Below, one piece after another: positions 6,222 to 48,276 of a stretch of 63,690 bases of DNA. The stretch is taken from the IMG/VR virus record IMGVR_UViG_3300021963_000126, positions 1-63,690 of that record; one strand, given 5' to 3'. The notes under the pieces were generated by a model. The model did no database searches, was not told where the DNA came from, and saw only the letters and a program-made list of their open reading frames with translations. Numbering within the stretch: the stretch's first letter is position 1; each line of letters starts with the position of its first letter. A program made the translations under genes and the position numbers. This DNA is from a virus.

Positions 6222-7301
6222 TTATTGTAGTATTGCAGATCCAGTATTACTAAACCGGTATCCGTCCCACGCCCAAAATGTTTGTGTAGATCTAACAGCA
6301 TAAGCAGACCCCATAGAATAAGATGCATTGGGATTAAATCGAACATCCAGAGGTAGTTGGTCAGGAGTATCGACCACTCCTAACAATTTTGTTATTGTAA
6401 TAATTTGGACTCCAGGCCAGAATGTAGATGTAGTTGCTGTAGCAGACGAGTCATTTATAACAGTATTTGTTGCAGTATTAACTTGTGTACTTGTATTAAC
6501 AAAAATAGTAAAAATTCCTGTTGATCCAAGATACTGCCCAATATCTCCCGGGTCAATTGGGTCTCTAGGACCAAAACCAGTGTCTCCACCATCTCCCCAT
6601 TGTGGGTCTCCGACAGCACCACCTGCGCCCCCTTGCGGCGGGCCTGGGTCTGGATCTAACCCTTCGCCCGGATCTTTGCCCTTGTTGCCTGACAGTGGGA
6701 GGGTATCGATCAACCGAATTGCAACATATTCAACCATCGGTGTAGTTGAGTGCGGGATTGTGTTATTGCTTTTAAATCTTAATCCTATTCCAAAAGACGG
6801 ATCAGATATACATGCTTTAAACCAACTTAAATTTGCAGTAGACGTATTAAGATCTTGGATTGTTATTCCCCAGTAAGGATTTTCATCAGATATACTTGTA
6901 ATTTGACCTATACGTTTGATAGAATCTATATTGTCGCTGGCCCTGTTTAACCCTATCCAATTATTATTCCATCTTAATTGAATAGTATCTTCCATTACTC
7001 GACCGCCGGTATTCATTACTAGTTTAACTTCTATACCGTATAATTTTTCTGGAATGTTAAAATTAAATCCAGTACAATACAAATAATTTGTTTTGTTTAA
7101 TCTTGGCCCAGTAGACGAATTTACTACATGTGCCACTGGCGACATAGTTTTAACATGTCCTTTATCGTATGATTTAATAAGCCAAAAATTTCCTGTATTA
7201 TCCCATGGGATGTGTGACGGATCTTCAGCTACTTGAGTAACTTCTGTAGGAAGGCACCATCCTGTGCCATTAAATTCGTATCCAGATATATCTATACGCA
7301 T
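6222..7301 (-). CDS. Virion structural protein with Pro/Gly linker
   Basis: A 359-residue protein with three visible parts. Residues 1-205 have a lectin-like or jelly-roll look with scattered Trp and Tyr. Residues about 208-255 form a Gly/Pro/Asp-rich linker (PGEGLDPDPGPPQGGAGG). A C-terminal part has Thr/Asn-rich sequence, then VRFNPNASYSMGSAYAVRSTQTFWAWDGYRF, split here as a W-A-W-D-G-Y type display motif. The flexible linker joining two folded parts is typical of phage appendage proteins. It lies 7 nt downstream of the 265-residue gene. Only a weak GGT-type ribosome binding site precedes the ATG, so coupling to the upstream gene is likely. Confidence 0.6.
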   Translation of the reverse strand: MRIDISGYEFNGTGWCLPTEVTQVAEDPSHIPWDNTGNFWLIKSYDKGHVKTMSPVAHVVNSSTGPRLNKTNYLYCTGFNFNIPEKLYGIEVKLVMNTGGRVMEDTIQLRWNNNWIGLNRASDNIDSIKRIGQITSISDENPYWGITIQDLNTSTANLSWFKACISDPSFGIGLRFKSNNTIPHSTTPMVEYVAIRLIDTLPLSGNKGKDPGEGLDPDPGPPQGGAGGAVGDPQWGDGGDTGFGPRDPIDPGDIGQYLGSTGIFTIFVNTSTQVNTATNTVINDSSATATTSTFWPGVQIITITKLLGVVDTPDQLPLDVRFNPNASYSMGSAYAVRSTQTFWAWDGYRFSNTGSAILQ

Positions 7302-7308
7302 TATTTTT

Positions 7309-8106
7309 TTACCAATTTAATAATTTAACAACAGTAGTTGTTAGACTAGTGTCTGTTCCGTTAGCATCTACAAAAGTCCATTTAGCTCTGTCATTTGTGT
7401 TGTAGACAAACGGGCCTTGACCGTAAAATTGTTTTCTATGAAGTGTAACATTGTGTGCTTGAATTTTTGTAACCCAGTAGACATTTTTATTTGAATCTTC
7501 TGCAAAGATAGAACACGTTCCTGTTGTTATTGTTCCCGTTGTAAGAACACACACGCCTTTGCTTATTTTTGTTTTTAAGTAAAATTTCTTATCACTTATC
7601 TGTTTAACTATATCAGCAGGATACGAAATATTGGTTATAGGTTGACCAGATATTAATGGTTCAGGCGGAATAGCATATACTCCTATTGTGTTTGGAGTAA
7701 TATTTCTTAATTGAGCTTGAAATACTGCACGTTGTTGAACTGGTTGATTTACATAATCCCAAGCTAGGCTTATTGTAGGTGGTTGAATATATCCCGATCC
7801 TTTATCAAACCAATATATTGAGTTAGGAATAACTCCCCCAGTAGTCACACTAATACCTAGTTGCCCGTACGCTTGTACTCCCCCAGGTAATTCTGGAGAA
7901 GATGCATACCAATAAGTTGCTAACGGACTACTTAATGTTTGACCTGTTTGTATTTGCCATGCTGGGTACCAATCCATGTATCCTGAACCGGTATTTAAAA
8001 TTTTAATATCCCATACTCCTTCACCACCTATAAAATTGTCAGCGGCAGTATTGTGAACATTAATTGTGTCATTGCCGAACAGGCGGCGATTTAAAGGTTT
8101 GGCCAT
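7309..8106 (-). CDS. Virion structural protein (leaderless late gene)
   Basis: A 265-residue beta-rich protein with many aromatic residues and no catalytic motif. Its C-terminal third (LTTGTITTGTCSIFAED, then VYWVTKIQ) looks weakly related to the C-terminal half of the 165-residue protein encoded just upstream (TALTTGQMAIKAI, then VFWASRITNKYVW), so the two may be paralogues. There is no Shine-Dalgarno sequence before the ATG. A late promoter ends 5 nt before it, placing the predicted start site on the A of the ATG. A terminator separates it from the upstream gene. Exact virion location is unknown. Confidence 0.65.
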   Translation of the reverse strand: MAKPLNRRLFGNDTINVHNTAADNFIGGEGVWDIKILNTGSGYMDWYPAWQIQTGQTLSSPLATYWYASSPELPGGVQAYGQLGISVTTGGVIPNSIYWFDKGSGYIQPPTISLAWDYVNQPVQQRAVFQAQLRNITPNTIGVYAIPPEPLISGQPITNISYPADIVKQISDKKFYLKTKISKGVCVLTTGTITTGTCSIFAEDSNKNVYWVTKIQAHNVTLHRKQFYGQGPFVYNTNDRAKWTFVDANGTDTSLTTTVVKLLNW

Positions 8107-17951: not shown

Positions 17952-18164
17952 ATGACTTTCGCTGAAATTGACCAGTTAGCGGAAAAAATGGAAAAAGAGA
18001 TAAAAGCCTTTAAGTCAGAATTGTTTAAATTATGTTGGTTTATGAGGGGAGGTCTGACTATAGAGCAGGCCTATGATACTGATTTTCAAGATCGAGAAAC
18101 TATAGTAGAACTTATAAAAGAGAATTTAGACACTACTAAAAAGAGTGGTCTGCCATTCTTTTAA
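17952..18164 (+). CDS. Small gp51-like baseplate hub assembly protein
   Basis: A 70-residue helical protein (FKSELFKLCWFMRGGLTIEQ, then a C-terminal LDTTKKSGLPFF). The F-M-R-G-G core and the K-S-G-L-P-F end match small proteins that follow gp26 in T4-like phages, and its place corresponds to T4 gene 51 (249 residues, hub assembly catalyst). It is far shorter, so I infer a related chaperone-like role but do not assert orthology. It overlaps the convergent downstream gene by 4 bp. Confidence 0.55.
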   Translation: MTFAEIDQLAEKMEKEIKAFKSELFKLCWFMRGGLTIEQAYDTDFQDRETIVELIKENLDTTKKSGLPFF

Positions 18165-19135
18165 AGTTTCATATTTAAAAAACGACTATACTCTATACTT
18201 TCAGTAACCCCCGGTTGAGGAGGCGCTACCGGAGCAGCCTGTTGTGCAACTGCTTTTTGAGGCAGTGCAGAATTTAATGTTTCTATTGCTTTACGTAGTT
18301 TTCTAGTAACTTGGCCACCGTTATCTAAATATTCTTGCCACTGTGCTAAAAGTTTACCTGGATTGTTAAATGGATTATCTGTAGCTACTGGTGACGCAGG
18401 TTCTGCCGCAGTAGATTGTGATCGTCCTAAAGAAACACCACTGCCTCCACGAGAAGGGAGACTACGACCTCTCTGTGCCGCAACAATAGCAGAATAATTC
18501 TTTTCTACGGCTGTTTTAATAATAGTATCTATTTGTGAGTTATTAAGAGTAGCGGCTCCTTCTACATCTTCTCGAACTGTAGCAAATTTTGGAGAACCGT
18601 CTGGATTCTTTCCTACTAGTTTTTGTACTGGAACACCCACTCTTGAAGTTTTAAATCCTGTTCCAGTTTTACCTGCTATGCCTGCACCACCTTTTAATCT
18701 GCCCTTTAATTCAGCGGCTTTTTTTGGGTCAATTTTAGTTGGAGTAGTCGGAGTACTTGTCGGTGCTGCCGGAGTAGCTGTTGGTGTAGAACTTGGTGCG
18801 GTTGCTGTAGTTGCAGGAGATGCTGATTGAGCAGGTGCTGTAGTAGGATCAGTAATACTATCTAAATCTTGTAATCCGTGACTACCAAGAAAATCTATGA
18901 GACTAGAGTATGTTGCATTATTTCCGCCACCTACAGTCTTCATGTATTCAGCTTTGAGATTTGCAACAATTTTAGACGAATGTTCTTCACCTTGCCTACT
19001 AGATTGACTAGCTTTAAAACCACTTACTGCACCTCGAACTCCGTTGTCCATAGCACCTTTAAAGCCTGCCTTAATGTCTTTAAAGATACCTAACTCATCA
19101 AGTTGTTCTTCATTTAAAACATCGTTATATCTCAT
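18161..19135 (-). CDS. Low-complexity protein, possibly packaged in the head
   Basis: A 324-residue protein. The N-terminus (MRYNDVLNEEQLDELG) has two L-x-E tripeptides, matching the gp21 cleavage rule for proteins targeted into the prohead. Residues 25-90 are helical and basic. Residues about 95-135 are a Thr/Pro/Ala-rich linker. Later parts are basic and Gly/Ser-rich, and the end is GVTESIEYSRFLNMKL. There is no catalytic motif. It has a perfect late promoter with a short leader and AGGAA. I infer a late virion protein, perhaps internal; a tail or neck role remains possible. Confidence 0.55.
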   Translation of the reverse strand: MRYNDVLNEEQLDELGIFKDIKAGFKGAMDNGVRGAVSGFKASQSSRQGEEHSSKIVANLKAEYMKTVGGGNNATYSSLIDFLGSHGLQDLDSITDPTTAPAQSASPATTATAPSSTPTATPAAPTSTPTTPTKIDPKKAAELKGRLKGGAGIAGKTGTGFKTSRVGVPVQKLVGKNPDGSPKFATVREDVEGAATLNNSQIDTIIKTAVEKNYSAIVAAQRGRSLPSRGGSGVSLGRSQSTAAEPASPVATDNPFNNPGKLLAQWQEYLDNGGQVTRKLRKAIETLNSALPQKAVAQQAAPVAPPQPGVTESIEYSRFLNMKL

Positions 19136-19157
19136 GATAGTTCCTAAAATTGTGTTG

Positions 19158-19165
19158 TATTTATA
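19158..19165 (-). promoter_or_regulatory. T4-type late promoter (perfect TATAAATA)
   Basis: The minus strand reads TATAAATA, with a predicted start at 19152 and a 16-nt leader that contains AGGAA. A 7-bp hairpin (AGTGAGC-TACT-GCTCACT, 19165-19182) ends exactly where the promoter begins. Confidence 0.8.
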
Positions 19166-19181
19166 GTGAGCAGTAGCTCAC

Positions 19182-19214
19182 TTGCTTCATCGCTTACGCT
19201 CGAAGCAATTTTTT
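19182..19214 (+). terminator. Plus-strand intrinsic terminator
   Basis: TTGCTTC and GAAGCAA form a 7-bp stem with a 13-nt loop followed by six T residues. It would stop plus-strand RNA that has passed gp26 and the gp51-like gene and run antisense through the 324-residue gene. It can equally be read as part of the structured block next to it. Confidence 0.6.
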
Positions 19215-19223
19215 ATTATGATT

Positions 19224-19614
19224 AATGCGAAGCATTTTAATATTATCCAGATCGTTCAGTCACACTTTGCCCAGAGAGGGCAAAGTAAAACAACATTATC
19301 CGAGTCGAACATGTGTCACCTAGCGTTAGAGCATTACAGTGGCGGTTGGCCGGTACCACGAGCTCAGTCTTATTCCAGCGGCGGTAAGCAAATATACGCT
19401 AACATACTTACTTACGTGGGGTGTCTCTATCCCCTCATTTTACCTATTCATCTATCTTCAAACAACTAAATCGCAGGTTTTATTAGCAATCTTCATCCTT
19501 TCGGGTAGTAGTTGAGTACTCTTAACGGCGAGAGATTTCCATCCCTGTGATCCGAGATCCAGGTTTAGGGCACCAGAAATTAGCAGGTGCGAGCTTAATA
19601 CCGTATAATGAGCC
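19224..19614. ncRNA. GC-richer, hairpin-dense non-coding block (candidate structured RNA)
   Basis: About 390 bp without a convincing gene in a genome that is otherwise densely coding and AT-rich. Visible stems are AATGC-GAA-GCATT (19224-19236), a perfect 9-bp stem ACTTTGCCC/GGGCAAAGT (19264-19286), and GTGG/CCAC with GC-rich interior (about 19339-19359). CTTA/TAAG around a GC core (about 19368-19387), GGGG/CCCC (19418-19434), an 8-bp stem CCTG-GATC/GATC-CAGG with one bulged T (19544-19563), and GCACC/GGTGC (19570-19590) complete the set. If transcribed it is more likely from the minus strand, continuing from the gp46/GIY-YIG unit. It does not match tRNA, RNase P, SRP or intron signatures that I know. 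Confidence 0.5.
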
Positions 19615-20043
19615 TTAAGATTTTTTAATTATATGTGAGCCATGTACACGAACAGATATCTGTCCGTTATAATATTCATTTGATTCTAATACTTTGCGGT
19701 CGAATTGTTCACGGGCCTCAATGTAAGATGTTTCTGCTTTACTTTTACAGTAGTGTAATATTTCTCTTGTGAAGTTTTCTTTGCCGTATAACTCAACGTC
19801 TTTGTTAAGTTCTATATTTGAGCCATAATAATCTTGCCAGTCGCTTTCTATTTTGCTTCTGATCTTCTTTTTCTTCTTGGTGCCGTTCTTTAACTTTACA
19901 GTCTTGTAGGTCGTTTTACTAAACTTCGCTAATTTTTTGCCAACATAAAGCCTGCCAGAAGTATTACATGAGATAAGATATACAAATCCCACGCAATCTT
20001 CAGGTAATTCTGTAACTATAGAACCTTTATAGTACCAAGTCAT
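19615..20043 (-). CDS. SegE-like GIY-YIG family protein
   Basis: A 142-residue protein of the GIY-YIG nuclease superfamily, SegE-like branch. The GIY equivalent is GFVYLI (Y22), the YIG equivalent is RLYVGKK (Y33-V-G35), the likely catalytic Glu is E109 in SYIEAREQF, and an Asn follows in YYNG (N126). The D-Y-Y-G-S-N stretch and NFTREILHYC near residue 90 are family marks. A Lys-rich insertion lies at residues 50-64. In T4 such proteins act as homing endonucleases, but many phage homologues in this branch are fixed genes of unknown role. It is the last gene before the structured non-coding block and lies 3 nt after the histone-like gene. Confidence 0.75.
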   Translation of the reverse strand: MTWYYKGSIVTELPEDCVGFVYLISCNTSGRLYVGKKLAKFSKTTYKTVKLKNGTKKKKKIRSKIESDWQDYYGSNIELNKDVELYGKENFTREILHYCKSKAETSYIEAREQFDRKVLESNEYYNGQISVRVHGSHIIKKS

Positions 20044-20046
20044 TGG

Positions 20047-20244
20047 TTACTTTGCCGTCTTGGCTTCCTTGCGAGCATTTTTCTCAGCAGTAATTTCGTT
20101 GCGGCGTGCCTTAACTAATTTGCCAACTTCACCTAACGCCTTACGAGCACGAGTTCCTGCGGCGCTGTTACCTGCTGAAAACTTTGCATCTTCTGCTAGG
20201 AATGCTTCAAATTCTGCTTTAATCTGTTCAACTGTTGTTGTCAT
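20047..20244 (-). CDS. Histone H1/Hc1-like small DNA-binding protein
   Basis: A 65-residue helical, Lys/Ala-rich protein. The core GNSAAGTRARKALGEVGKLV with following ARRNEI closely matches the bacterial histone H1-like (Hc1-type) family, in which a G-N-x-A-A-G-T-R-A-R-K-A motif recurs. Such proteins bind and compact DNA nonspecifically. The C-terminus is basic (AEKNARKEAKTAK). It overlaps the upstream 105-residue gene by 17 bp. A role in DNA packaging, nucleoid disruption or recombination is inference. Confidence 0.7.
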   Translation of the reverse strand: MTTTVEQIKAEFEAFLAEDAKFSAGNSAAGTRARKALGEVGKLVKARRNEITAEKNARKEAKTAK

Positions 20245-20545
20245 TTTGTTTTTCCTTCTTTGGTTTTGGCCCTGGTTTTTTAGGGTTTAATTTTCTTTCT
20301 TCAGCTTTACGCTGTTTTTCTTGTTGTGTTTTAAGTCTAGTTAACACGCGATGTTCTTTAGAAACTAACTTCGAGGATCTCCATAACTTTTTTTCTATTA
20401 CTCGTATAGAACGATACACTTTACGAACTTTAAATCCATCTCGTTCAGTCGGTGCAACATTAAACGATACACTCAAATTATGTAACTCAACTAATAAGCT
20501 CACAAATTGATTGTAGAGTTCTCTATACTTCTCTAACTCTGACAT
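20228..20545 (-). CDS. Small basic protein of unknown function
   Basis: A 105-residue protein. The first 75 residues are predicted helical, with an amphipathic start (LEKYRELYNQFVSLLVELHN). The last 30 are a Lys/Pro tail (RKLNPKKPGPKPKKEKQ), typical of nonspecific nucleic-acid binding tails. It begins 6 nt after gp46 and overlaps the histone-like gene by 17 bp, so the three are probably cotranscribed. I do not recognise the family. Confidence 0.65.
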   Translation of the reverse strand: MSELEKYRELYNQFVSLLVELHNLSVSFNVAPTERDGFKVRKVYRSIRVIEKKLWRSSKLVSKEHRVLTRLKTQQEKQRKAEERKLNPKKPGPKPKKEKQNDNNS

Positions 20546-23388: not shown

Positions 23389-23398
23389 TAAAAGTCAA
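23369..23398 (-). promoter_or_regulatory. Sigma-70-type promoter before gp47
   Basis: The minus strand reads TTGACT, 18 bp, TATATT. The -35 hexamer includes the TGA stop codon of gp55. The -10 lies in the loop of the hairpin that covers the gp47 ribosome binding site. Confidence 0.55.
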
Positions 23399-24306
23399 GC
23401 TTCTTCCTCTTCATCTTCTATACTAGTTTCTTCAGATTTAGGTAATCGAACGTTCTTATACAGCTCGGCCTGCCTTGCAGTTTCTTCAGCAAATTCTGCT
23501 TGGGTTTGTCTAGTCAAACTAGGAGTTAATCCAGCAATTTCTAATAAGTCATCACGAATATTTTGGTTCTTTTTTTCCAAATTTAACACACGAGTGAAGC
23601 TATTTGTGACTGCCGCAGTATAGTAGGCAAAGGGATTTTCTGACTTGGATTCGTCAAATTGAAGCCCAATTTGACTTAACTGTAATACGGCCTGCCCCCG
23701 CATTTCTTCGACATAGGTATAGCCGCGCCAGTTACTACGTTGTGCATATCTTTCACTTAATTTAATATACATTTTACCTAAATTTTCAGTAATTCTTCCA
23801 TGATCCTTACTAAAATGTCCCTTTTCAACAGTTCCTTTCCAGTGACTTTTACCTATACATATTAAATTGTCGGTCTCGTCAAATTTAAAATGTTGGAAAG
23901 GAGGAAAATTTACTCTATCATGCCCGTCGGCTGTGCTTTTAACAGTTTTCTTTCGTCCTGGAGCAAGCGGAATATGATCAAATGTCATTATTCGAATTAC
24001 AATATCTGTTTTAGCTATAGTTTTGTAATCCGGAGTCACTTCGAGTAATTTAATTTTTTTATCACCCGATAATCTGGCTGCAACAAATGCTTCTAATCCT
24101 AGTCGTTTTGCCTTGTTTCTTTTTGCTTCTGCTATTGTTCTTATATTAATTTTATCTATACTTGGCAAAATAATATCATGTTGACTATATTCTGGCTTGG
24201 TAAAACTACTAAATGAACATTTGCTTTTATGTATTTCTGCTAATAAATCTCTGTTATTGAGATATTTTACTTTACGCCCTGTAGTCAGGGATGTTGTTAT
24301 GGTCAT
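23395..24306 (-). CDS. gp55: Late-transcription sigma factor gp55, N-terminally extended
   Basis: Directs host RNA polymerase to TATAAATA late promoters. The conserved sigma-like core is in the C-terminal half, about residues 172-250: ITENLGKMYIKLSERYAQ, SNWRGYTYVEEMRGQ, and SENPFAYYTAAVTNSFTRVL. The protein has 303 residues against 185 in T4, because of a 165-residue N-terminal extension. That extension starts VKYLNNRDLLAEIHKSKCSF and includes a basic AKRNKAKRLG stretch; its role is unknown. The C-terminus is acidic (EDEEEEA). The ATG has AAAGGAGG and a near-consensus sigma-70 promoter is upstream, consistent with early expression. Confidence 0.88.
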   Translation of the reverse strand: MTITTSLTTGRKVKYLNNRDLLAEIHKSKCSFSSFTKPEYSQHDIILPSIDKINIRTIAEAKRNKAKRLGLEAFVAARLSGDKKIKLLEVTPDYKTIAKTDIVIRIMTFDHIPLAPGRKKTVKSTADGHDRVNFPPFQHFKFDETDNLICIGKSHWKGTVEKGHFSKDHGRITENLGKMYIKLSERYAQRSNWRGYTYVEEMRGQAVLQLSQIGLQFDESKSENPFAYYTAAVTNSFTRVLNLEKKNQNIRDDLLEIAGLTPSLTRQTQAEFAEETARQAELYKNVRLPKSEETSIEDEEEEA

Positions 24307-33600: not shown

Positions 33601-34067
33601 CTTATTCGTTGTTATTAAATCCTCTTAAAAGTATTAGTGACGAATTAGTGTTCCAACCTGCAAAATACAAAATATTATTTGGCGATAAGGCACCCGCAGT
33701 ACTCCAAGCAACTTTTAAGGCAACAAAAAATCCTGCTAGATCCAATAGCGACAATGATCTTAAAACACGAATTCTTACAGCAATTGACCAGTTCTTTAGT
33801 ATAGACAATTGGGATTTTGGTCAAACTTTCTTTTTTAGTGAATTGTCAACCTATGTAATGAATATAATGACTCCGGACATTACTAATTTTATTATTGTTC
33901 CTAAACAAGAATATGCGTTTGGTAGTTTATATGAAATTAAATGCAAAAGTAATGAAATTTTTGTATCCGGTGCAACCACCTTTAATATTGAAATTATTGA
34001 TTCTATGACAACTTCACAACTAAAAGCAAGTGGTAACATTACAAATACCGTAAGGGGTCAACAATAA
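30624..34067 (+). CDS. gp6: Baseplate wedge protein gp6, enlarged
   Basis: Core wedge protein whose dimers make the inner baseplate ring. The N-terminus is diagnostic: LVAEDWKKIYQSYKNADFKS, SEYIALIDLIAFLGQNLSFR, DLNARENFLETAERRESVLR, and LARLINYNAKRNYPATG, each family-typical. The core then continues with VTAEDYNIVPLTVG near residue 430. T4 gp6 has 660 residues, and this one has 1,147, mostly from beta-rich insertions in the middle and C-terminal half. The C-terminal region (NDLKTRILTAIDQFFSIDNW) is also gp6-like. Its stop overlaps the next gene's ATG by one base, so the two are coupled. Confidence 0.9.
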   Translation: MIPSTTNQLLVAEDWKKIYQSYKNADFKSYDFETLRRTMISYLRENYPEDFNDYIDSSEYIALIDLIAFLGQNLSFRVDLNARENFLETAERRESVLRLARLINYNAKRNYPATGLLKIVSIQGTDTVFDSSGLNLSNVPISWNDPTNPNWFEQFITILNSAMPSTMSFGKPAAKATVDGISTEKYTISSNNDSVAVFSFNKSINGSNFTFEIVSSSFDTTIYEDVPKPRSPFGILYRNDNKGTNSANSGFFVQFKQGTLNVSDFNLDNPVPNEIIGIDAPNINETDVWLWQLNQDGTYPANPWKKVSSVSGNNVIYNSLSTDERNLYSVITREDDQIDLNFTDGSFGNLPKGQFKLWYRQSTGISYLIKASQMQNISFSIPYVNSQGQAHTISFIASLQYNVGNSSPAETNVQIKTKAPQAFYSQNRMVTAEDYNIVPLTVGTDILKVKTVNRISSGVSRYYELTDVSGKYSSVNIYGDDGILYKEVKEYNFEYKISTRNEIKFAIKNNLVSVFNLKEFRNFYYEYYLRPNFENYSVNWTQATKNTNQVTGYFNLDGLPTPAGDFSSNNLKYVTTGALVKFIAPRKINPLLTNDSTLYQQYFLPNGKLTFTSDGTTSLYKWAKVISIVGDGYNEGKGTLLNGSGPVTLSTSLPTGAIPVEVITKFINIPSEALQAQLVNISLTKRNFGISLDQDTKSWYIVSDSNIDLTSPFSLINQKDTTDTNKDASWMVSFVWTGINYKVTYRVIEYIFESLNNTSFFVDNQKINYDYINDTIIKDSITVLGINRSPLVSTGESLKVDQPWQVDAPVIELDGYQEPRKVKISFYDIDEDGQIDNPDSFVDIVNPDYFDSVTGFKSNFVFFKWNTGRTRYTVADPTQFFSCPTENDVPQSMLTDGQLFYFYDDAVNVIKIWDESILDYVLQTDYFARPGRSDLKFHYIHKASQDRRLDPGKTNLMDIYLLTKSYDTEFRNWLYTGDGTEPYPPTTQGLDTSYSLLLNPLKSISDELVFQPAKYKILFGDKAPAVLQATFKATKNPARSNSDNDLKTRILTAIDQFFSIDNWDFGQTFFFSELSTYVMNIMTPDITNFIIVPKQEYAFGSLYEIKCKSNEIFVSGATTFNIEIIDSMTTSQLKASGNITNTVRGQQ

Positions 34068-37000
34068 TGGCTTCTAGAAAATCAGTTAATCTTTTACCGT
34101 CTTTTTTAAGAACAGAAAAAAATAATAAATTTTTATCAAGTACGCTTGACCAATTAATATCTCCGCCTGAAATTACAAGAATAGATGCATATGTAGGTAG
34201 CAAAGATACTCCTAGTTATCGAACTGGTGATGAATACCTGCAAGAGTCAAATCCATTGCGAGAAAAATATCAATTAGAACCAGCGTTGGTAGTAAGGACA
34301 TTGACTCGTAGCATTAAAAAGGCATTTGCGCTTGACGATCTTTTAAATCAAGTAAAAGTTAATGGAATTGATTCTTCTAATATTGACAGAATTCTTAATC
34401 CTAAATTTTATTCTTATGATCCTAAAATTAATTGGGATAAGTTTGTTAACTTTCGAGAATACTATTGGCTTCCATCTGGTCCTTCCGCAGTAGAAATTGC
34501 AGGAAGAACATTATCTCCAGTAACTGAATTTAATATTGTTGATGCAGACGATAAAATTCAATTCTTGTTTGATGCAAAGACAACTTCTCCTACTCTTACG
34601 TTGTATAGAGGCGCCACTTATGTTTTTAATGTTAAGTCGCAACATAATTTTTATATAAAATATACAAATAGTGTAGGTAGTAATGATTCTGTTCCTTTAA
34701 CTAATAATGGAACTAAAGACGGTCAAATAATTTTTACTGTCGATTGGTCTGCTCCTGAACGTTTATTTTATGTCAGTAACGATGACCAGCTATCAACTGG
34801 TAATATTTTTGTTAAAGACCCAATTGACAGCACTCTTATTGATATTGAAAATGAGATTGTTGGTAAAAAACACTATACCTCAGGTAACAATGTTACTTTT
34901 ATTGATGGTCTTAAAGTTCGATTTTCGGGAACTGTTATACCTGAAACATACAAAGACAACGAATATATTGTTGAAGGTGTAGGCAATGCAATAAAATTAA
35001 TTAAATTTACTGATTTAGATACTCCTGATGTGACTGCCGATGCTTATAATTCTAGATTTGACGGCACAAACTTTGATCAGTTTCCGTTTGATAATTTTAA
35101 AAATATTCCGTTAGTACCTGAATATGTTACAATCAATCGTGCTAGCAAAGATCTTAATCCTTGGTCTCGATACAATCGTTGGTTTCATTCGGACGTAATT
35201 AGAGAAGTTGCTAAAGCAAATAATCAATTAGTAATATATCCTGCCGAATATAGAGCAACTAGACCTATTGTAGAATTTATTCCAGATTTGCAATTATATA
35301 AATTTGGTACTACTGCAATTCCTAACGTTGATTTAATTGATACTTTTACAACTAACATCTTTAAAACAATTGAACAAGAAGACGGATACGATATTGATCA
35401 GATTACAGTAGAAGAAGGATTTAGAGTTGTTTTTAATGCAGATTCTGATCCTGCAATACGCGGAAAAGTTTTTAAAGTTAACTTTGCTAGATTTGGCGAT
35501 AGGTTTAAGATTAATTTAACACAAGAATCAGATATTCCTGTTGTTGGAACATCTGTTCTTATCAAGAAAGGTATTGAACACGGCGGTTCTTCTTGGTTTT
35601 ATAACGGCATTACTTGGGTTAAAGGACAACAAAGAACAAAAAGGAATCAAGCTCCATTATTTGATTTGTTTGACGAAAACGGAATAAGCTATAGTAGTAG
35701 TGAATATACTACTGATTTTAAAGGAAATGCGTTATTTGGATACGGAGTAGGCACCGGCCCCGTTGATCCTGTGTTAGGATTTCCGTTAGCTTATAGAAAT
35801 ACAGGTATTGAAGGCACTTATCTTTTTAAGAATTATTTTGCAATAGGATCTATTCAATTAGTAAACGCAGATCAATCAGCTACAATTTCAACTGCTCAAA
35901 CATATTTTAAAATTAATAGTGATAATGGCACAACAGTTTCTAATATATGGTTGTCGGTAGAACCTTACGAAATTCCAAACGTAAATGGAATATATGACAC
36001 ACCACTTAATTTAACAAATAATCCTTCTAATAAAAATATTACAGAATTTACATTAACTGAATTATCAGACCATGTACGCTCTATGGTATCTAGAGACCCA
36101 GAGTTTAAGGGAGATTTTCCTGGAGTAAGTAATCTTAAAGATTTACCATTTATTACTCGATTTGGTACAAAACTTATTACAAATATAAATCCGTTAAGTT
36201 TTGCCCAACATTTTATTACAGACAATGATAATTCTGTTATTAATGCAATGCGCCTTGTGGGAGAAAATTATCAGACTTTTAAATTTAATCTTATAAAAAC
36301 AATCAGCGACTTAAATGATAATTTGTCCCCCATTGATGCACTAGATGAAGCATTAAGAATTTTAAATCAAAACAAAACTACTACATTCCCATATTATAGT
36401 AGTGACATGGTTCCATATGGAGTAAGTCCAGTTATTCGAACTTATAGGATTACTGATTCTCGCAAGACAAAATATGCTCTTCCGCCCGATGCAAGTGTGA
36501 CAATATTAAGTTCTAGGGGCCTGTTAGTATATCTTAATACAACACAATTGATACGAGGTCGAGATTATAAATTTGATTCTTACGATGCTAACGTAGAAAT
36601 TTTAGTTCCTATTGTCCGAGGAGACGTTATTACTATTAAGGATTATCCTACAACTGATGGTAATTTTGTTCCTCCTACTCCTAGTAAATTAGGATTATAC
36701 CCTGCATACGAGCCTGCTATCTTTGAAGATGATTCTTATATTAACGGACCTAAAACTGTTATTCAAGGTCATGATGGCAGTATTACGATTGCGTTTGGTG
36801 ATTATCGAGACGAAATATTATTAGAATACGAAAAACGAGTTTACAATAACATTGGAACAGAATACAGAGCTGACATTTTTGATATCACTGCAATTTTACC
36901 CGGCGTATTTAGAAATTCTAAATTTTCTTATAGAGAAGTAATTAATCCAGTTTTACAAGATTTCCTTAAATGGAAATCAACATTCGGAGTCGAAATAGAA

Positions 37001-40000
37001 AAAAATCTAACATTTGATGTTAACGAACCTAAAACCTATAATTACAGTTCAGTAAAATTATCATCAGGCGATTATCTTCCTGGAAATTGGAGAGCAATAT
37101 TCAAATTATATTTTGATACTGATCGTCCGCACATTGCTCCTTGGGAAATGTTAGGGTTCAGTGTTAAACCAGCATGGTGGGAATCCGAATATGGTCCTGC
37201 TCCATATACTTCTGGCAACACAAAATTGTGGGAAGATTTAAAATTAGGAAAAATTGCACAAGGTACAAGGAAAGGGTTTGACCTTAACTATGCAAGACCG
37301 GACTTAATTAACATTTTGCCAGTTGACTCTTACGGTAATCCAATTCCAATTAGAAATTGGGGAATTTTAAACGCTAATAGTTCAGTTGATGGTATAACTA
37401 ATAATTGGAAATTTGGGGACATGGGTCCTGCTGAAACTGCATGGAGGAGAAGTAGTTATTGGCCTTTTGCTCTACAAATAATTTCTGCACTTACTAATCC
37501 GGCAACTTACACTGCTTTGATGTTTGACACAAGTAGAATAGTTAAAAATGCCGTAGATAAATTGGTGTATAGCAATGACAACCTTCCTATCAATTCTTCT
37601 AAAGTTATACTTCCATATGAAACAATAAATGGACAAAAACAATTTGCAAGCGGTTATAGCGTTATTGTTATTGAAGCAGGGCTAATTAAAAATTCTAATT
37701 ATATTAAAAATTTAAAATTAGAATTAACAAATGCTGAATTTAATCTTATGAATAAAGTTGGCGGATTTGTTAGCAAAGACAAATTAGAAGTTGTGATCGA
37801 TTCTGTTAATCCTAACAGCATTAATCCTGGAATATTATTGCCTACAGAAGATTATTCTATACATTTTAATGTAAGCAACCCTATCGATACAATTGAAATA
37901 AGCGGAGTTATTGTACAAAAAGTACAAGGCAATTATATTGTAAGAGGGTATGATAAGACCAATTCATATTTTAAAATTAATGCTCCTATTCGACAACAAG
38001 TGGACCCATATATCACTGTGGGTGCTATTTCTGAAGATTATACCGTGTGGAGTCCAAATACGTTTTACTCTATTGGTCAAGTAATTTTAAACGATAATGT
38101 CTTCTATAGGGTGTCTTCAAATCATAGTAGTGGTCTTATCTTTGATACCTTAAATTCTCAAAAGTTATCAACTTTGCCGACAGTAGGCGGAATTACTGCA
38201 CAACTATCAACAGGATTCGACGATACTGAAACTACTATCCCATACGGAACATTGTATCAAACTCCGCAAGAAGTTGTAGATTTCTTATTAGGGTACAGTC
38301 GTTATCTTACAAATAAAGGATTTGTGTTTGATGAATATAGTAAAGAATTGGGCGAGCTACTTGATTGGAAGTTAAGCATTAAAGAATTTTTATTTTGGAC
38401 AACGCAGAACTGGAACGAAGCCAATATAATAACATTAAGCCCCTTTGCAAGCAAAATTAAATTAACAACAAAAAATGCAGTTGTTGATAATGTGTTTAAT
38501 CCTTATTACGAATATTCAATATATAAGGCAAATGGAGCACCATTTCCGTACTCTGATATATCGTTAAGTCGTGAAGACGGATTTTGTACAATTTCTACTG
38601 ACAACGAACTAGAAGGTATTTTTTACGCTAAATTAAGATTAGTACAAAAAGAACACGCAATTATTCTTAATAATTTAAGTCGATTCAATGATGTAATATA
38701 TGACACCGCAACAGGATATAGACAGCGTCGAATTCGTCTTATCGGATTTAGAACAGCAAATTGGAACGGAAATTTTGTTAGCCCTGGCTTTGTTTATGAT
38801 GATGTTAAAATAACACCTTGGGGACCCTATACAGATTATACAGCAGGTGATGTTGTTGAATATGCAGGAAAATATTATAGTCTAATTAGATCGTCGGCAG
38901 GAGAAGAAACGTTTGATTTTTCTAAATGGTATAAGTTAGATAATAAACCGACAGCACAACTAATTCCTAATTTTGAATATAAAATTAATCAGTTCGAAGA
39001 TTTTTATAGTCTTGATATTGATAATTTTGATATAGGTCAACAACAATTAGCACAGCACCTTATAGGTTATAGTTCTAGAGTTTATCTTGATAATATATTT
39101 TTAAATCCAATTGCACAATACAAATTCTTCCAAGGATTTATAAGAGAAAAAGGCACCCTTAATGCTTTAAAAAAATTAGAAAGAGCAAGTGTTCATAACT
39201 TACAGGGAAATATTGAATTTAACGAAGAATGGGCATTTAGAATAGGAACGTTTGGAGCATTTGCGGCTCTTGATGAAATTGAATTTCCTCTCAACGAACT
39301 AGATTTTGTCGATAATTCTCAAATTGTTAAATTTGTTGAAAAAGCTCCTAACATATCTTACGATCCAACAAATTATATCACCCCAGATAAATTTACAATT
39401 AAAAACCCAGAAATTGATATTCTTAATCTCTTTGACACAGTACCGCCGTCGACAAATGAAGAATTGTTAGTATTACCTTATGCTGGTTATGCAACATTAG
39501 AAGATGTTGATTATACAGTAGTTTCAAAATCAGAACTTATATCGGGTCCTGTAAATTCTAACATTAAAGTTGGCGATACTGTTTGGGTAGGGTTTGACGA
39601 TAACGAAGACTGGGGTATATATAGATATTCTAGATTACCTATTGCAGTTAAACAAGTTTATTCTTACCGAGACGGCGAACAAATAAGTTTTATAACAGAT
39701 AAAAACCACGGGTTAAAAGTGGGCGATGTTGTTGCAGTTGTTCGATTTTCAGATACATTAGATAGAACATATGTTATCTCTGAAATTAATAGATTAGACG
39801 AATTTGTAGTAGACTACACCGGATCAATTCCTGATTTTGTAAGTCAATTTGGTTTATTGTTTAAGTTTGTATCATCTAGATTTGAAACATTTGACGATAT
39901 TATCAATACAACATATCTTGCAGACTTTAGACAAGGTAAAAAAGTTTGGATTGATAATAATATATCTGGTAATTGGGAAGTTTATGAAAAAACTAACAAC

Positions 40001-43000
40001 TATTTTATAAGTAGACTTCCAAATGTAATTGATTATGATTATGCTAGATACGGACAAGTGGTCAAGGCCGAAGAAAATTCTAATATATTAATTGTTGGTG
40101 CACCTGATTACGATGATGGAAATGGGTCGGGTAAAGTATTTGTTTATACAAATGTAAATGGAGTGCTGACCCAACTATTCTATTATGGAGTCAACAGATT
40201 CCTTAACCAATATTATAATAATAATCTTTCACCTGCTCCAAAAGGTGGATTTGGATCAGCAATAGAGTATGACCCTATTGACGGGTATATTATTGCTTCT
40301 GCTCCATATGCGTCCTATATTAGGTCAGAAACTTCCGGAAATACACGGTTTGTTTTATCTACCGCTCCTACTAGTTCATACCAAAAAGAGGGACTAGTAG
40401 TTATATCGTCGGTAAATTTAGCAAATAATGGAGAAACTCGATATTTTACATTATCTTGTTCTGAGCCGGAGAATGGATTAGAATTTGGTAAGAGTTTATA
40501 TGTTACAAACACAGCAACACACAAATTATTATTTGTAGGAGCTCCTGGTAAATCTTATAATGCAGGCGCAGTCTATTTCTATGATTTAGCAATAGTTAAA
40601 TCAGTTCCTGATGTATTAACTTTTGATAATAATCTTACTACCTTTGATAAAAATACCTGTCTGTTTGATGCAGTAGGTGCTGTTAAAATTGATACAAACG
40701 TTACAGCAACGTCACAAATAAAATTACCAACACCTCCTATTGTTTCTGCTGGTAGTAGATTTGGTGAAGTTATTTCTGGAAATAATTTAGGAACAAGAAT
40801 AGCAGTATCTGCTCCTCAATATAATAATGGAAATGGTGCAGTCTTTGTTTATAGAAAGAGCTCAACTGTAAATTCTTATACCTTAATTCAAACCTTACTG
40901 CATTCTGATGTAGCGCATGGCGGAAAATTTCCGTTGTATTCTAGATTTGGTGCATCAGTAAGTATGACAGACGACGGTAACTGGCTAATTGTGTCTGCTG
41001 ATTTAGCCGATGATAAGAATGTAGAAAAGGGAAAAGTTGCAATCTATAAATGGTCGACTAGTCTTAATTTATTTGTGTTCTCTCAACTACTACAAAATCC
41101 TTCTAGTACTAGAGGTCTTAAATTTGGTCATAAAGTTGAAACAGATAAATCTGGCGAAATTTTAGTTGTATCTGCTCAAGGACCAAATTATTTTTATGGT
41201 CTAACTTATGACGATGGGTCTACTACTTTTGATGCCGAGTCAACAAATTTTGGTGCAGTTATAAATGACTCTGGCTCTGCGTATGTCTATAATAGGTACA
41301 ATGATAAATTTATATATGCAACTGAGCTTTTTGATTATCAAGTTGATGCCGGAAGTTTTTATGGTGCAGATATTGCGGTAACAAGAAATTATGTATACGT
41401 TGGAGCACCGTTAGATATAACAACAGGTACTACACGTGGCGGCCAGGTGTTTGCATGGAACGCAATTGACCCATTAGCAAATACGTGGAAGTTAATAAGA
41501 CAACAGTCTAATTTAGTAGATACTCGAAATATTAAATCTATTAAAACAATTGATTCATTTAACGAACAAGTATTAGATTATCTTGAAATATATGATCCTA
41601 TCAAAGGATTTATTCCAAGTCCTGCCGAAAACGAATTAAGATATAAGTCTTTGTTTGACCCTGCGGTCTACAATACTGGTACCAATACAAAAGTTAATAT
41701 TGACATAACTTCTTATTGGGGGAAAGAACATGTAGGCGAGCTTTGGTGGGACTTATCGGCTGTTAAGTACATGTTGTATGAACAGGGCAATATTGATTAT
41801 AGGCGCAACCTATGGGGAAGTCTGTTTCCAGGAGCATCTATTGATGTATATGAATGGATAGAAAGTGATTTTATTCCTAGCGAATGGGGATTAAGCGCAG
41901 ATACAACTGCCGGCATTGCTCTAGGTATAAGCGGTACTCCGAAGCATTTAGATGATTCTGTGTACGTTGAAGAACAAATTTATAGTCCTATATCTGGACA
42001 ACTTATAAGCAAATACTATTTTTGGGTTAAAAATTCAATTTTAGTACCAAGCAGGCAAGGTAGAAATATTTCTGCAAACGAAGTAGCCGGGTATATAGAA
42101 GATCCAAAAGGTTACGGTTTAAGATATCTACAAGTTCATTCTGCAAATTCTTTATCTGTTGTTAATACTAAAGAAACATTGGTTAACGAAAGAATATTAT
42201 TGAACATACAATTAAACAATAGTGATTCAAATAAACACTCTGATTGGTTGTTAATAGAAGAAGGATCAGCTAATAGTCTTCCTAATCCATTATTAGAGAA
42301 AAAATTTGTTGATAGTCTATTAGGTCGAGATAGTTTAGGAAACGTTGTTCCTGATCCGTCGTTGACAGAAAGACAAAAATACGGAATTCAAATTAGACCA
42401 CGCCAATCTATGTTTAAAGATAGATTAGAAGCATTAAGGAATCTTATCAGTTATGTAAATGCAATATTTGTTAATAATTTAATTACTGATTTTTATAACT
42501 TATCTACTCTTAATCTTAAAGACGAAATTCCTCCGATCACTAGTCGAGCGTATGATTTAATTGTAGAAGATTTAGAAAAAAAATTAACTATATCGACTAA
42601 AGAATTAGTTCAGGCTGAATTCACAGCAGTATTAACTGATGGAAAAATTACTAATGTTAATATTATAAATTCAGGACATGGTTACGGTAAACTAGATCCA
42701 ATCGCTTATAATCAGGCCGGTGAACCAATTTTATGGCATGGTCCAGATATTACAATTGACAATGATACCAACGGGGCTATTATTAATACAGAAATTAATA
42801 GTGTAGGGTCAATTATTAATGTAATAATTAAAAATTCAGGGAAAAACTATAATACTCCTCCTGTTTTAGTAGTAAGACCGTATACTTTAATTGTTCAAAC
42901 AGATTCTGACTCAAAAGGTCGATGGACAAAGTATGCGCTAATTAACGGCGACTGGGAAAAAATACAAACTCAAAGCTACGATACTACATTGTATTGGGAT

Positions 43001-46000
43001 TATATAGATTGGGTATCACCAAACTATAATCCTAATCAAGCGATTAGTGCAACTCTTGATCAGATATATCAAATACCAGAAATTGAAGTAGCGACAAATG
43101 AGTATATAAAAATTAACAATAACGGTGCCAACAGATTTATTATCCTTAAGAAAGTTGAACCAGGAACGTTAGGTACATATAACAATAATTTTGATATAAT
43201 GTACAGCGAAAAGGGAACTATTAAGATTAAAGATAGTATATGGAAGTTATCTGATTCACAGTTAGGGTTTGATCAAATATCACCGTATGATGATACGTTC
43301 TTTGATCAAACTCCTGATGTAGAGTTAGAAAAAATTATATATGCTCTTAAGAATGATTTGTTCACAGACAATTTAAAAGTCTATTGGAATAAATTCTTTT
43401 TTGCAGGAGTTAAGTACGCACTAACAGAACAAAAATTTATTGACTGGGCATTTAAAACAAGTTTTATTAATGTTAAAAATATAGCTGGAGAGTTGAATCA
43501 ACGACCAATTTATAAATTTCAAGATTCTCAGTGGTATGAAAATTATCTCGACGAAATTAAACCATTCCATACTAAAGTAAGAAATTACAAATTAAGTTAT
43601 TCAGTGACAGATCCTTCACTAACCTTTGCAACTGATTTTGATCTTCCTGGCGTATACGATAAAACAATAGGTAAGTTTAAACCATTATCGGCTGTTGATA
43701 TTGAAGCTCAACAATATCCTTACAAAGGCTGGTTTGACAATTATAAACTTCATTTAGATAGGATAATTCTTGTCAATGCTGGTAAGGGATATACAGAAAC
43801 TCCTCAAGTTCAAGTAATTCCTGCATTAGGTGAAACTGTTACAAGGCCAGCAATTGTAAGAGCAGTATTAAGTGGCGGTAGTATATTAGATTTTGAAATT
43901 TTAGATTCAGGAGAAGGATATATTACTAACCCTACAATTCTATTTGTAGGTGGCGGTGGCGCAGATTATACTCCGGCCAAAGCTACTGCGGTCATGTCTA
44001 ACGGAAAAATAAGAACTAATCTTATTTCTCTAAAATTTGATAGAATATCAACAAATAGAGAAGTGGGATCAAAATTAGCAACTGATCAATTTACTGTTGT
44101 GGGAAATGAAAACGAATTTGTTTTATCGTGGCCTGCGCTATATGACAAGACTAATATTACGTTAAAAGATAACGGTATTATTGTGTTATCTTCAAACTAT
44201 ATACTTGAGAATTTTTCATCAAAAGTTAACGGTTACAGTAAACAATTTACAAGATTAATTCTTAATTATACTCCGGATCTAGGACATATAATTTCTATTA
44301 CATATCCAAAAAGTCTTAAAATTTATCAAGCATTTGATAGGATACAAGACTATTATAATCCGTTGCCAGGAATGCCAGGTAAGGATATAACTACTGGATT
44401 TTCTCAATTAATGAAAGGAGTAGAATATCCTGGAACTGAAATTTCAACACAGGCGTTTGATAACAGTTATCCATGGGACGGTGATCCATGGGGAGAAATT
44501 CCTTGGGATATCTTAAATTATTCAGTTACGGGATATATTCCAACTAGGGCAAATCTTCCTAGTTCGTATTCAGGTAGCATAGGCGATAGTTACATGACCA
44601 CAGACAACAATCACAAATGGGAATGGTCTGGTACTACATGGATTGACAGGGGCGAAATTAATAAAGACCTTGACACTCTTATTGATGGCGGCAATTTTAT
44701 AAAAACGTTAGCTGGTGGATTTGCCACTGCGGCAGGCACAACTGCTACTGACGTTATTCTTGACGGTGACGAATTTATATCTCCTTATAGGAGTCATGCT
44801 CCTGAAGAGTCTATTCCTGGTGAAGTTCATGATTCTCTTGCTATAGATGTCTTTACACGACGATCTTCAGGTAGTGGAATGATCTATACCCTAGTTCAAG
44901 ATGTAGTAGCTGGCCAACCTACTACAATCCAGTTAACTATTAAACCTCCAAATTATGATTCAGTCACTGTTACGTTAAATCATACATTATTACAACCTCG
45001 AGTAGATTATAGTATTAATTTCCTTGACAATTCCTTGTTTGTCGTGCAAAAAGCGGTAGGAGGCACACTTGAAGTTACCTATATGGAATTTGGAGGCACC
45101 GGTTTCTTAAGCAAAGATTCAGCTGTTGTTGAAGGGGAAGCTGAGGGAGCGGTTATAGGTTCTTGTGCATTTAGAGATGTTAAGAGTGTATTTGTAAGTG
45201 TTAATGGAGTAAGAATATACCCTCAAGGAACGTTCTATGCTCAATTGCAATATTTTGAGTTAACTAAAGCAGATGCTAAAAACAGTGCTAGAGCAAAAGT
45301 TACAGTATACGGATTAGGTATAGGTGAACCTAACACAATTACGGCTATATTCTTTAATGGTGATAAAAAGTTTAGTGAGATTAAAGAACAAGTTTGGCTT
45401 AATTTAGATAATAATAATAGAGATGTTGCCTTATCTCAACCTCCAGGCCTGCTTGGTCCTGCTTCTGCAAATTCTATTGTAGAATTAAACAGAAGAAGAC
45501 TTGTTCCTCCCAATACCACTTATTATGAGATAACAAACTTATCTCAAACACAATTTGATATTAATACTCGAAAAGTTTATCCGGCTAACTCTTTTGATAA
45601 TACAATTATTGAAGTTTATAAGAACGGAATAAAACTCTCAATTGGCCAATATGAACTTAACCAATACTACAATAGAGTTGAATTTGCAGACAACTTCTTT
45701 AATTTGGGCGATGTGTTAGCAATTACTTCTATTGTTGATTATGATTATGTAATAAGAGGCAATGTTCTTACCATCTCGGAGAGAGTTGATATTACAGGCT
45801 CTAATAGATTCAATGTTCTTAATGAACCCGGTTATGACGGAGTTACATATCTTCGAGCTATTACATTCACTAATCAAGATAACAGTTTTATAAGAACTGA
45901 AGTGTATGAAGCAAATAGTTCAAGAATTTATAAACTCACTCGAGTGGTAGTAAATGATAACTTTGTTTGGGTATCTATTGGAGATAAAGTTTTAACTAGC

Positions 46001-46987: not shown

Positions 46988-48274
46988 ATGGCCGCAATTT
47001 CACAACTACCAAGAACAACTTCAATAACAGGTAACTCCCTCTTTATTGTCACTGAAAACGGAGTATCAAAAGTAGTTTCCTTTGATTTTATCAAAGCAAA
47101 TATAACTGGATTTTCTGGATCTTTTGGATTCCAAGGAAGTGCAGGACTACAAGGATTTGTAGGATCAGCTGGTTTAGGTTATACAGGTAGTACAGGACCA
47201 AAAGGTGACACTGGTTCTCCTGGCGGTTATACAGGTAGTGCAGGCCGGGGACTTGTTGGATATATAGGAAGTCCAGGGTTTATTGGACGAGACGGCTATG
47301 TAGGAAGTGAAGGACCTAGAGCGTATACAGGTAGTCAAGGCCCGGCAGGTGAATTTGCAGGTATGGGCTATGTAGGCAGTCAGGGAACTCAAGGTAATCT
47401 AGGTTATACAGGCAGCGCCAGTAGTGTAATAAATTTATCTGGGTTAAGCCAAAGCATAATTCCTTCTGCTGCATTGGCGTTTGATATAGGTACTACAACT
47501 ACTTTTTGGAGAACTGGATATTTTTCCGCAGTAGTTGCAAATTATGTCGTCGACTACCTTGGCAATTCTTTAGTGGGCGGAGCTAACGGTTATACAGGTA
47601 GTAGGGGCGGCGGCTTCGTTGGTAGTGCAGGTCCACAGGGTGATCCTGGTTCGCCCGGCGGTTATACCGGCAGTGCAGGTACAGCAGTGGCGTATGTAGG
47701 TAGTCAAGGTGCTGCCGGCAGTCCTGGCGGTTTTATGGGCAGTAGGGGCTATATTGGTAGTCAAGGATATGCCGGATCGACTGGTCAAGGATTTGTTGGT
47801 AGTAAAGGTTACTCTGGCAGTTTTGGATTTGTGGGTAGTTTAGGACCTGTAGGGTATACAGGAAGTCCTGGTACCGGCGGCGGTGGAGTTGGATTAACCA
47901 GCAGACAAACTTTGTCCGGAGTTACTGGATCGTTAGCAAATAGTGCAACTGGAACATTTACAATTAACGGATATAAATCATATGCATTACTTAAAGTTCA
48001 AACGAGTGCGGCAGCATGGGTAAGAATATATTCAAGTTTAGCCGCTCAAGCAAGTGATGCAAGTCGTACTAGCTTTACTGAACCTCTTCCTGGTAGCGGA
48101 GTAATTGCAGAAATTATTACAACGGCTGCTGCCACTCAGTTAATAACTCCGGCAGCAATAGGATTTAACGATGATAGTCCTGCAGCCAGCACAATCTATT
48201 TACGAGTAACAAATCAAAGTGGTTCAACAGCGGCTATTACTGTTACATTAACAACATTACAACTTGAGGCTTAA
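46988..48274 (+). CDS. Collagen-like tail fibre protein
   Basis: A 428-residue fibre. The first 40 residues are a likely attachment domain (ISQLPRTTSITGNSLFIVTE). Two collagen-like Gly-X-Y blocks follow (about residues 40-145 and 200-300), with a repeating G-Y-T/V-G-S motif. They are separated by a short globular part (about 150-195). The C-terminal 125 residues form a beta-rich tip (LLKVQTSAAAWVRIYSSLAA, then EPLPGSGVIAEIITTAA). Trimeric collagen-like shafts are common in phage fibres. The gene is just downstream of the giant baseplate protein, where T4 has its baseplate pins and fibres. ATG has AAAGGA. Confidence 0.75.
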   Translation: MAAISQLPRTTSITGNSLFIVTENGVSKVVSFDFIKANITGFSGSFGFQGSAGLQGFVGSAGLGYTGSTGPKGDTGSPGGYTGSAGRGLVGYIGSPGFIGRDGYVGSEGPRAYTGSQGPAGEFAGMGYVGSQGTQGNLGYTGSASSVINLSGLSQSIIPSAALAFDIGTTTTFWRTGYFSAVVANYVVDYLGNSLVGGANGYTGSRGGGFVGSAGPQGDPGSPGGYTGSAGTAVAYVGSQGAAGSPGGFMGSRGYIGSQGYAGSTGQGFVGSKGYSGSFGFVGSLGPVGYTGSPGTGGGGVGLTSRQTLSGVTGSLANSATGTFTINGYKSYALLKVQTSAAAWVRIYSSLAAQASDASRTSFTEPLPGSGVIAEIITTAAATQLITPAAIGFNDDSPAASTIYLRVTNQSGSTAAITVTLTTLQLEA

Positions 48275-48276
48275 AA

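Follow-up and report, generated by a model that had tools for sequence, protein, structure and literature searches.

Polynucleobacter-1 as the 5' part of a larger modular RNA predicted in a lineage of environmental jumbo phages

Introduction

The closest described relative of the RNA reported here is Polynucleobacter-1 (RF01718), a model of 141 positions that is listed as 'y y ?' in Weinberg 2010 (PMC2864571). It shares with our RNA the 5' third, the freshwater setting and the link to Burkholderiales. The RNA presented here is longer, by a pseudoknot strand at the 5' end and by a 3' domain and tail of ~300 nt together, and is found mainly in a lineage of jumbo phages. GOLLD (RF02032) is likewise a large and ornate phage RNA of unknown function, for which the 3' part is conserved and the 5' part less so (cryo-EM, PMC12286853). 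Its likeness to our RNA is one of organisation, without a match in sequence or structure, and it sits next to tRNAs, whereas the stretch analysed here holds no tRNA or tmRNA gene (ARAGORN, Rfam). The ROOL and OLE RNAs are also large and pseudoknotted, and ROOL is phage-borne. A lytic phage, ICP1, makes a long noncoding transcript in abundance (~800 nt, PMC7567579); we liken it to our RNA by description, the phage and the location being different.

We analysed a 63,690-nt stretch of viral DNA from IMG/VR (the window), within which a first-pass annotation had marked a hairpin-dense, GC-richer block without a credible gene as a possible structured RNA, which it could not match to a known class. 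Comparison with relatives indicates that this block corresponds to one large RNA, one third of which is Polynucleobacter-1, an Rfam orphan of 141 nt since 2010.

Results

The block is free of credible genes, as first proposed: 19136-19614 holds short open reading frames only. On its 5' side lies, on the same strand, a gene for a SegE-like GIY-YIG protein, an assignment that the profile match upholds (Table 1). An Hc1 histone H1-like protein gene (20047-20244; PF07432, 1.3e-13) is located between SbcC and SegE. On the 3' side, the next minus-strand gene (18161-19135) starts at 19135 and is preceded by a candidate T4-type late promoter. The motif, TATAAATA, is exact, as had been claimed, and the window encodes a gp55-like late sigma factor (23395-24306), consistent with a late promoter. 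Across the whole window TATAAATA is scarcer than chance (3 occurrences, 10.9 expected), as if reserved for late promoters. The rise in GC is real relative to the immediate flanks (42-47% across 19200-19599 vs 32-35%) but not unique to the block, since the coding stretches 18200-18950 and 20000-20250 reach 43-46%.

The minus strand of the block folds better than its shuffles (z = -2.35, matched by 1 of 100 shuffles), unlike the plus strand (z = -0.66). We therefore place the RNA on the minus strand and rejected a plus-strand RNA. The whole window gave a single Rfam match, RF01718, which covers the full model at E 2.2e-24 (cut-off 37 bits) and assigns the 5' third of the block to a known class. 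Relaxing the search to E up to 5 added one chance match; ROOL, OLE, HEARO and the group I and II introns gave no match in the window.

Table 1 Features of the RNA and its surroundings (positions in the window).
Feature	Position	Strand	Evidence or remark
Whole structured RNA, ~450 nt	19166-~19614	-	conserved in ~210 loci; covariation
5' domain, RF01718 Polynucleobacter-1, model 1-141	19460-19595	-	115.6 bits
PK1 5' strand, ACGGU, upstream of Rfam model	19600-19604	-	pairs with 19525-19529 in hairpin loop
PK1 3' strand, GCCGU	19525-19529	-	pairs with 19600-19604
3' domain, outside any Rfam family	19239-19455	-	no Rfam match
Hairpin P9/P10	19384-19415	-	both-side changes in all 7 + 5 pairs
PK2 5' strand, P9/P10 loop, UUAGCGU	19396-19402	-	
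PK2 3' strand, ACGCUAG	19320-19326	-	pairs with 19396-19402
PK3 5' strand	19375-19379	-	pairs with 19345-19349 in P13 loop
Helices P12 and P13 around near-invariant GGUACCGG..ACCGCC	19328-19366	-	covariation; invariant columns
P12	19366-19362:19332-19328	-	
P13	19359-19355:19343-19339	-	
Direct repeat R1, ACUC + GGAUAAU	19295-19305	-	same 7-mer as R2
Hairpin P14, between R1 and R2	19264-19286	-	covariation
Direct repeat R2, AUCU + GGAUAAU	19242-19252	-	same 7-mer as R1
Tail hairpin T1, UUGCUUC..GAAGCAA with inner GAGCG..GCGA	19182-19208	-	
Tail hairpin T2, GUGAGC UACU GCUCAC, last element	19166-19181	-	
Candidate late promoter TATAAATA of next gene, just 3' of RNA	19158-19165	-	exact match
SegE-like GIY-YIG protein gene, 5' neighbour	19615-20043	-	PF19835, 1.3e-31

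Alignment of relatives revealed conservation that extends well past the Rfam model on both sides, and many of the strongest mutual-information signals are Watson-Crick pairs outside it. The covarying structure continues for ~300 nt further 3' and includes one additional 5' strand, which amends the extent of the RF01718 family and not the membership. We set the 5' end by conservation at the SegE stop codon and the 3' end at the last hairpin. The latter adjoins the late promoter, so the RNA fills the block marked in the first-pass annotation, and we read the block from sequence as one ~450-nt RNA, of which RF01718 covers the 5' third only.

We described the fold on an alignment of 88 sequences less than 90% alike, as a set of 83 pairs that takes in three pseudoknots. 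Pairing was found in 92.4% of cells, compared with 78.4% after shuffling and 36-45% when the structure was slid along the alignment, although the percentage is favoured by a structure drawn from closely related sequences and the compensatory changes carry more weight. Both sides change in 63 of the 83 pairs, double-change cells number 960 (276 shuffled, 103-214 slid), and the covariation score is 0.411 vs 0.167. These changes among homologues strongly support the original structured-RNA reading, while a decayed gene, the alternative then named, finds no backing, as the relatives have RNA structure and not a reading frame in common. Two stems noted earlier, the perfect 9-bp stem (19286-19278 with 19272-19264, here P14) and the bulged stem (19562-19556 with 19552-19545), are helices of the conserved RNA; the strand, the known Rfam 5' third, the unity of the block and the wider superfamily had been missed.

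All three pseudoknots show changes on both sides: 3 of 5 pairs in PK1 (92.5% of cells paired), all 7 in PK2 (98.5%) and 3 of 5 in PK3 (96.8%). A strict search recovered tail hairpin T1 in 94 of 156 loci as 59 distinct stems. T2 follows it directly in 86 of those 94 loci, with 46 distinct stems.

The 3' domain carries a pair of direct repeats, R1 and R2, which in all RNA types take the form of ACUC plus seven nucleotides and, ~50-60 nt away, AUCU plus the same seven. The two 7-mers are identical within the locus in 147 of 149 distinct loci, while 17 variants occur among loci. They begin with G in 77 loci and with A in 72, and R1 and R2 agree on this base in 149/149 (0.50 expected). None of 3900 shuffled sequences yielded such a repeat. 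The repeats are not complementary to each other, the RNA contains no complement of either, and the motif is not enriched within the window. Since the repeats covary by identity, whatever one copy fits, the other must fit too. A helix between the sequences preceding R1 and R2 (GUUC:GAAC) was dropped, its mean score being 8.14 vs 7.90 +/- 0.19 in shuffles, and a reading of the repeats as -10 boxes was rejected on inspection (wrong spacing, misfit of rare variants).

We searched IMG/VR with a pattern from the Rfam core, which found 119 stretches, 106 of them real, and with a pattern from the 3' domain, which gave ~100 further matching loci, mostly full-length RNAs like that of the window (type A). 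Roughly 35 loci match only model positions 239-384 (nhmmer), the 3'-most ~145 nt of the 3' domain (about 19385-19239). Their 5' parts are different sequences, which we call types B, C and D, and which at E up to 0.5 matched nothing in Rfam except RF01718 and one chance match. In one locus (L348) a type A 5' domain is linked to a junction resembling that of type B, which indicates that the modules recombine. Thus, by sequence comparison, the 5' module appears to be swapped while the ~145-nt 3' domain stays. The GOLLD covariance model gave no match to the window or the tested type B-D loci at E up to 10, and we rejected membership of that family. One RNA-bearing contig (L261) has a true GOLLD at a different site, so the two are separate RNAs; Phosso also has a true GOLLD.

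We also drew an independent sample by way of the adjacent protein SbcC, in which 67 loci extend far enough downstream. Of these, 63 have the RNA, as a rule 800-950 nt 3' of SbcC, and three of the remaining four have the repeats. Genes are arranged in the order SbcD, SbcC, (Hc1-like), SegE, RNA, variable gene, convergent baseplate gene and portal, and the RNA has the same orientation and place in all mapped loci. Because nearly all relatives in the lineage have it at the same place, the RNA is probably an important part of these phages. The SbcC/SegE/baseplate neighbourhood, checked for functional hints, offered synteny only. Several RNA-bearing contigs measure 260-365 kb, and the nearest GenBank portal proteins belong to the jumbo phages Phosso, PA5oct and Paride (~50% identity). 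By blastn, GenBank phages and plasmids held no homologue of the type A or the chromosomal RNA, and phages none of type B. The syntenic gaps of Paride and Phosso were dropped as members, having neither a model match nor R1/R2. The Phosso gap (a Sinorhizobium jumbo phage; L353 6577-6706) gave a sub-threshold match to EGFOA (RF02955; 29 bits, cut-off 37.7), which has no sequence match to our RNA and is equivalent in place only.

RF01718 also occurs on bacterial chromosomes. Of 399 Burkholderiales genomes, 4 have a match above the cut-off; one further match falls below it, and there is a beta-proteobacterial copy (L214) besides. A pattern scan of genome contigs returned mostly chance matches, the real ones being L214 and L226 only. 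These genomes are assemblies, and several are metagenome bins, so that short contigs may represent phage contamination; two copies are on whole-chromosome-scale contigs (G388 C1, G050 C1). The copies above the cut-off bear R1/R2 with new 7-mers (AGCGAAA, AACAAAA, GGCGAAA), and the L226 copy, which is flanked by two tyrosine integrases, has 6/7. The copies are divergent from a DUF6641 gene, itself present in only 7 of 200 genomes, and appear to lie behind a T4-late-promoter-like motif (GCTAAATAA). TAAATA occurs on the divergent strand, 89-145 nt away, in 11/11 intact DUF6641 upstream regions (6% expected per region), although these regions are related and do not represent 11 independent events. 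Opposite DUF6641 there is in some cases another large RNA-like sequence (L367, L376, L377) and in others a small gene. DUF6641 was rejected as a phage protein partner, with no match in the RNA-bearing phage contigs searched.

Discussion

We propose that the block encodes one free-standing ~450-nt minus-strand RNA that probably acts in trans, with repeats that fit a common partner, an exchangeable 5' module and chromosomal relatives that would be satellites or decoys. Such an RNA would be built from the Polynucleobacter-1 5' module, a 3' module with two pseudoknots and the two repeats, and the two tail hairpins. A trans partner is the simplest reading of the identity of R1 and R2: one partner would read them as two equal copies, candidates being a second molecule of the RNA itself or a protein dimer with symmetry. 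The exchangeable 5' module may bear a lineage-specific contact.

The position of the RNA, directly upstream of the gene at 18161-19135 and on its strand, would suit a cis-acting leader of that gene, a 5' UTR regulator or riboswitch, and so would the second 'y' of the Polynucleobacter-1 entry, whose column we take to be cis-regulatory. We consider a leader unlikely, because the RNA is separated from this gene by both tail hairpins and by a perfect late promoter, and the downstream protein was found by BLAST in only 16 of ~204 loci while the RNA is universal, which is not the consistent downstream gene family of a riboswitch; the chromosomal copies, moreover, have other neighbours, with DUF6641 divergent. 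Rather than a neighbouring gene's leader, the folded RNA would act in trans. The same adjacency can be read from the other side. The RNA starts at the SegE stop codon on the same strand, and we identified no promoter for the phage RNA itself; it could therefore be processed out of the SegE/SbcC transcript, perhaps as a 3' UTR or stability element of that operon. A SegE match adjoins the RNA in 174 of ~204 loci; the ~30 loci without one, the chromosomal copies that lack SegE and begin behind a promoter-like motif of their own, and a fold far beyond the needs of a stability element make a mere 3' UTR improbable.

The adjoining GIY-YIG gene also raises the possibility of a mobile element, either a self-splicing intron or an RNA moved by SegE as a homing endonuclease, as do the integrases around the L226 copy. 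This is very unlikely given that no intron family matched even at E 5 and that the RNA is fixed and syntenic in the lineage rather than sporadic; it is retained where SegE is missing, and isolates have relatives of SegE but not the RNA. Finally, identical direct repeats could form a pair of protein-binding DNA sites, and the inverted repeats could act as DNA in recombination, packaging or replication. That explanation retains hardly any weight with us, as compensatory changes keep the pairs over three pseudoknots, with G-U accepted, and only one strand folds better than chance.

Returning to a free-standing trans-acting RNA, motif, position and synteny suggest that the Burkholderiales copies could be satellites or decoys switched on by the late sigma factor of an infecting phage. 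A bolder version, which we regard as doubtful, would place all these sequences in a superfamily of modular large phage RNAs. In these, like would contact like through the repeats, either in a parallel homo-base-paired helix formed inside one copy or between copies, or by way of a partner with two-fold symmetry; the copies in hosts would be driven by a phage-late promoter at infection and serve as satellites or as decoy RNAs in defence. Covariation by identity, not complementarity, is unusual and points to a concrete contact that can be tested, and, with the late-promoter-like motifs of the chromosomal copies, an RNA conflict between phage and host is open to direct test. The RNA is a further case beside GOLLD and ROOL and gives a defined target for deletion and mutation; its 3' domain is common to RNAs absent from every database searched here.

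Several minor observations accompany these loci. Burkholderiales chromosomes (L366-L377, L381) carry 1-4 DUF6641 genes per genome, each divergent from a putative transcript behind (G)CTAAATAA. The payloads opposite DUF6641 vary between a Polynucleobacter-1-type RNA, another large RNA-like sequence and a small gene, and the arrangement resembles a family of satellites or of defence units. Elsewhere in the window, a single plus-strand open reading frame of 4302 aa (34067-46975) probably encodes a virion protein, followed at 46988-49953, by eye, by a collagen-like repeat protein and a subtilisin-like protease (SGTSMASPQVAGV motif). One RNA-bearing phage contig contains a permuted tmRNA (RF04321, 92.5 bits) and a tRNA at L322 3958-4257. 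In the Pseudomonas phage Paride, the syntenic place (L354 ~6640-7600) is ~1 kb without convincing genes behind TTGACA-N17-TATAAT, possibly an unannotated large RNA in a cultured phage.
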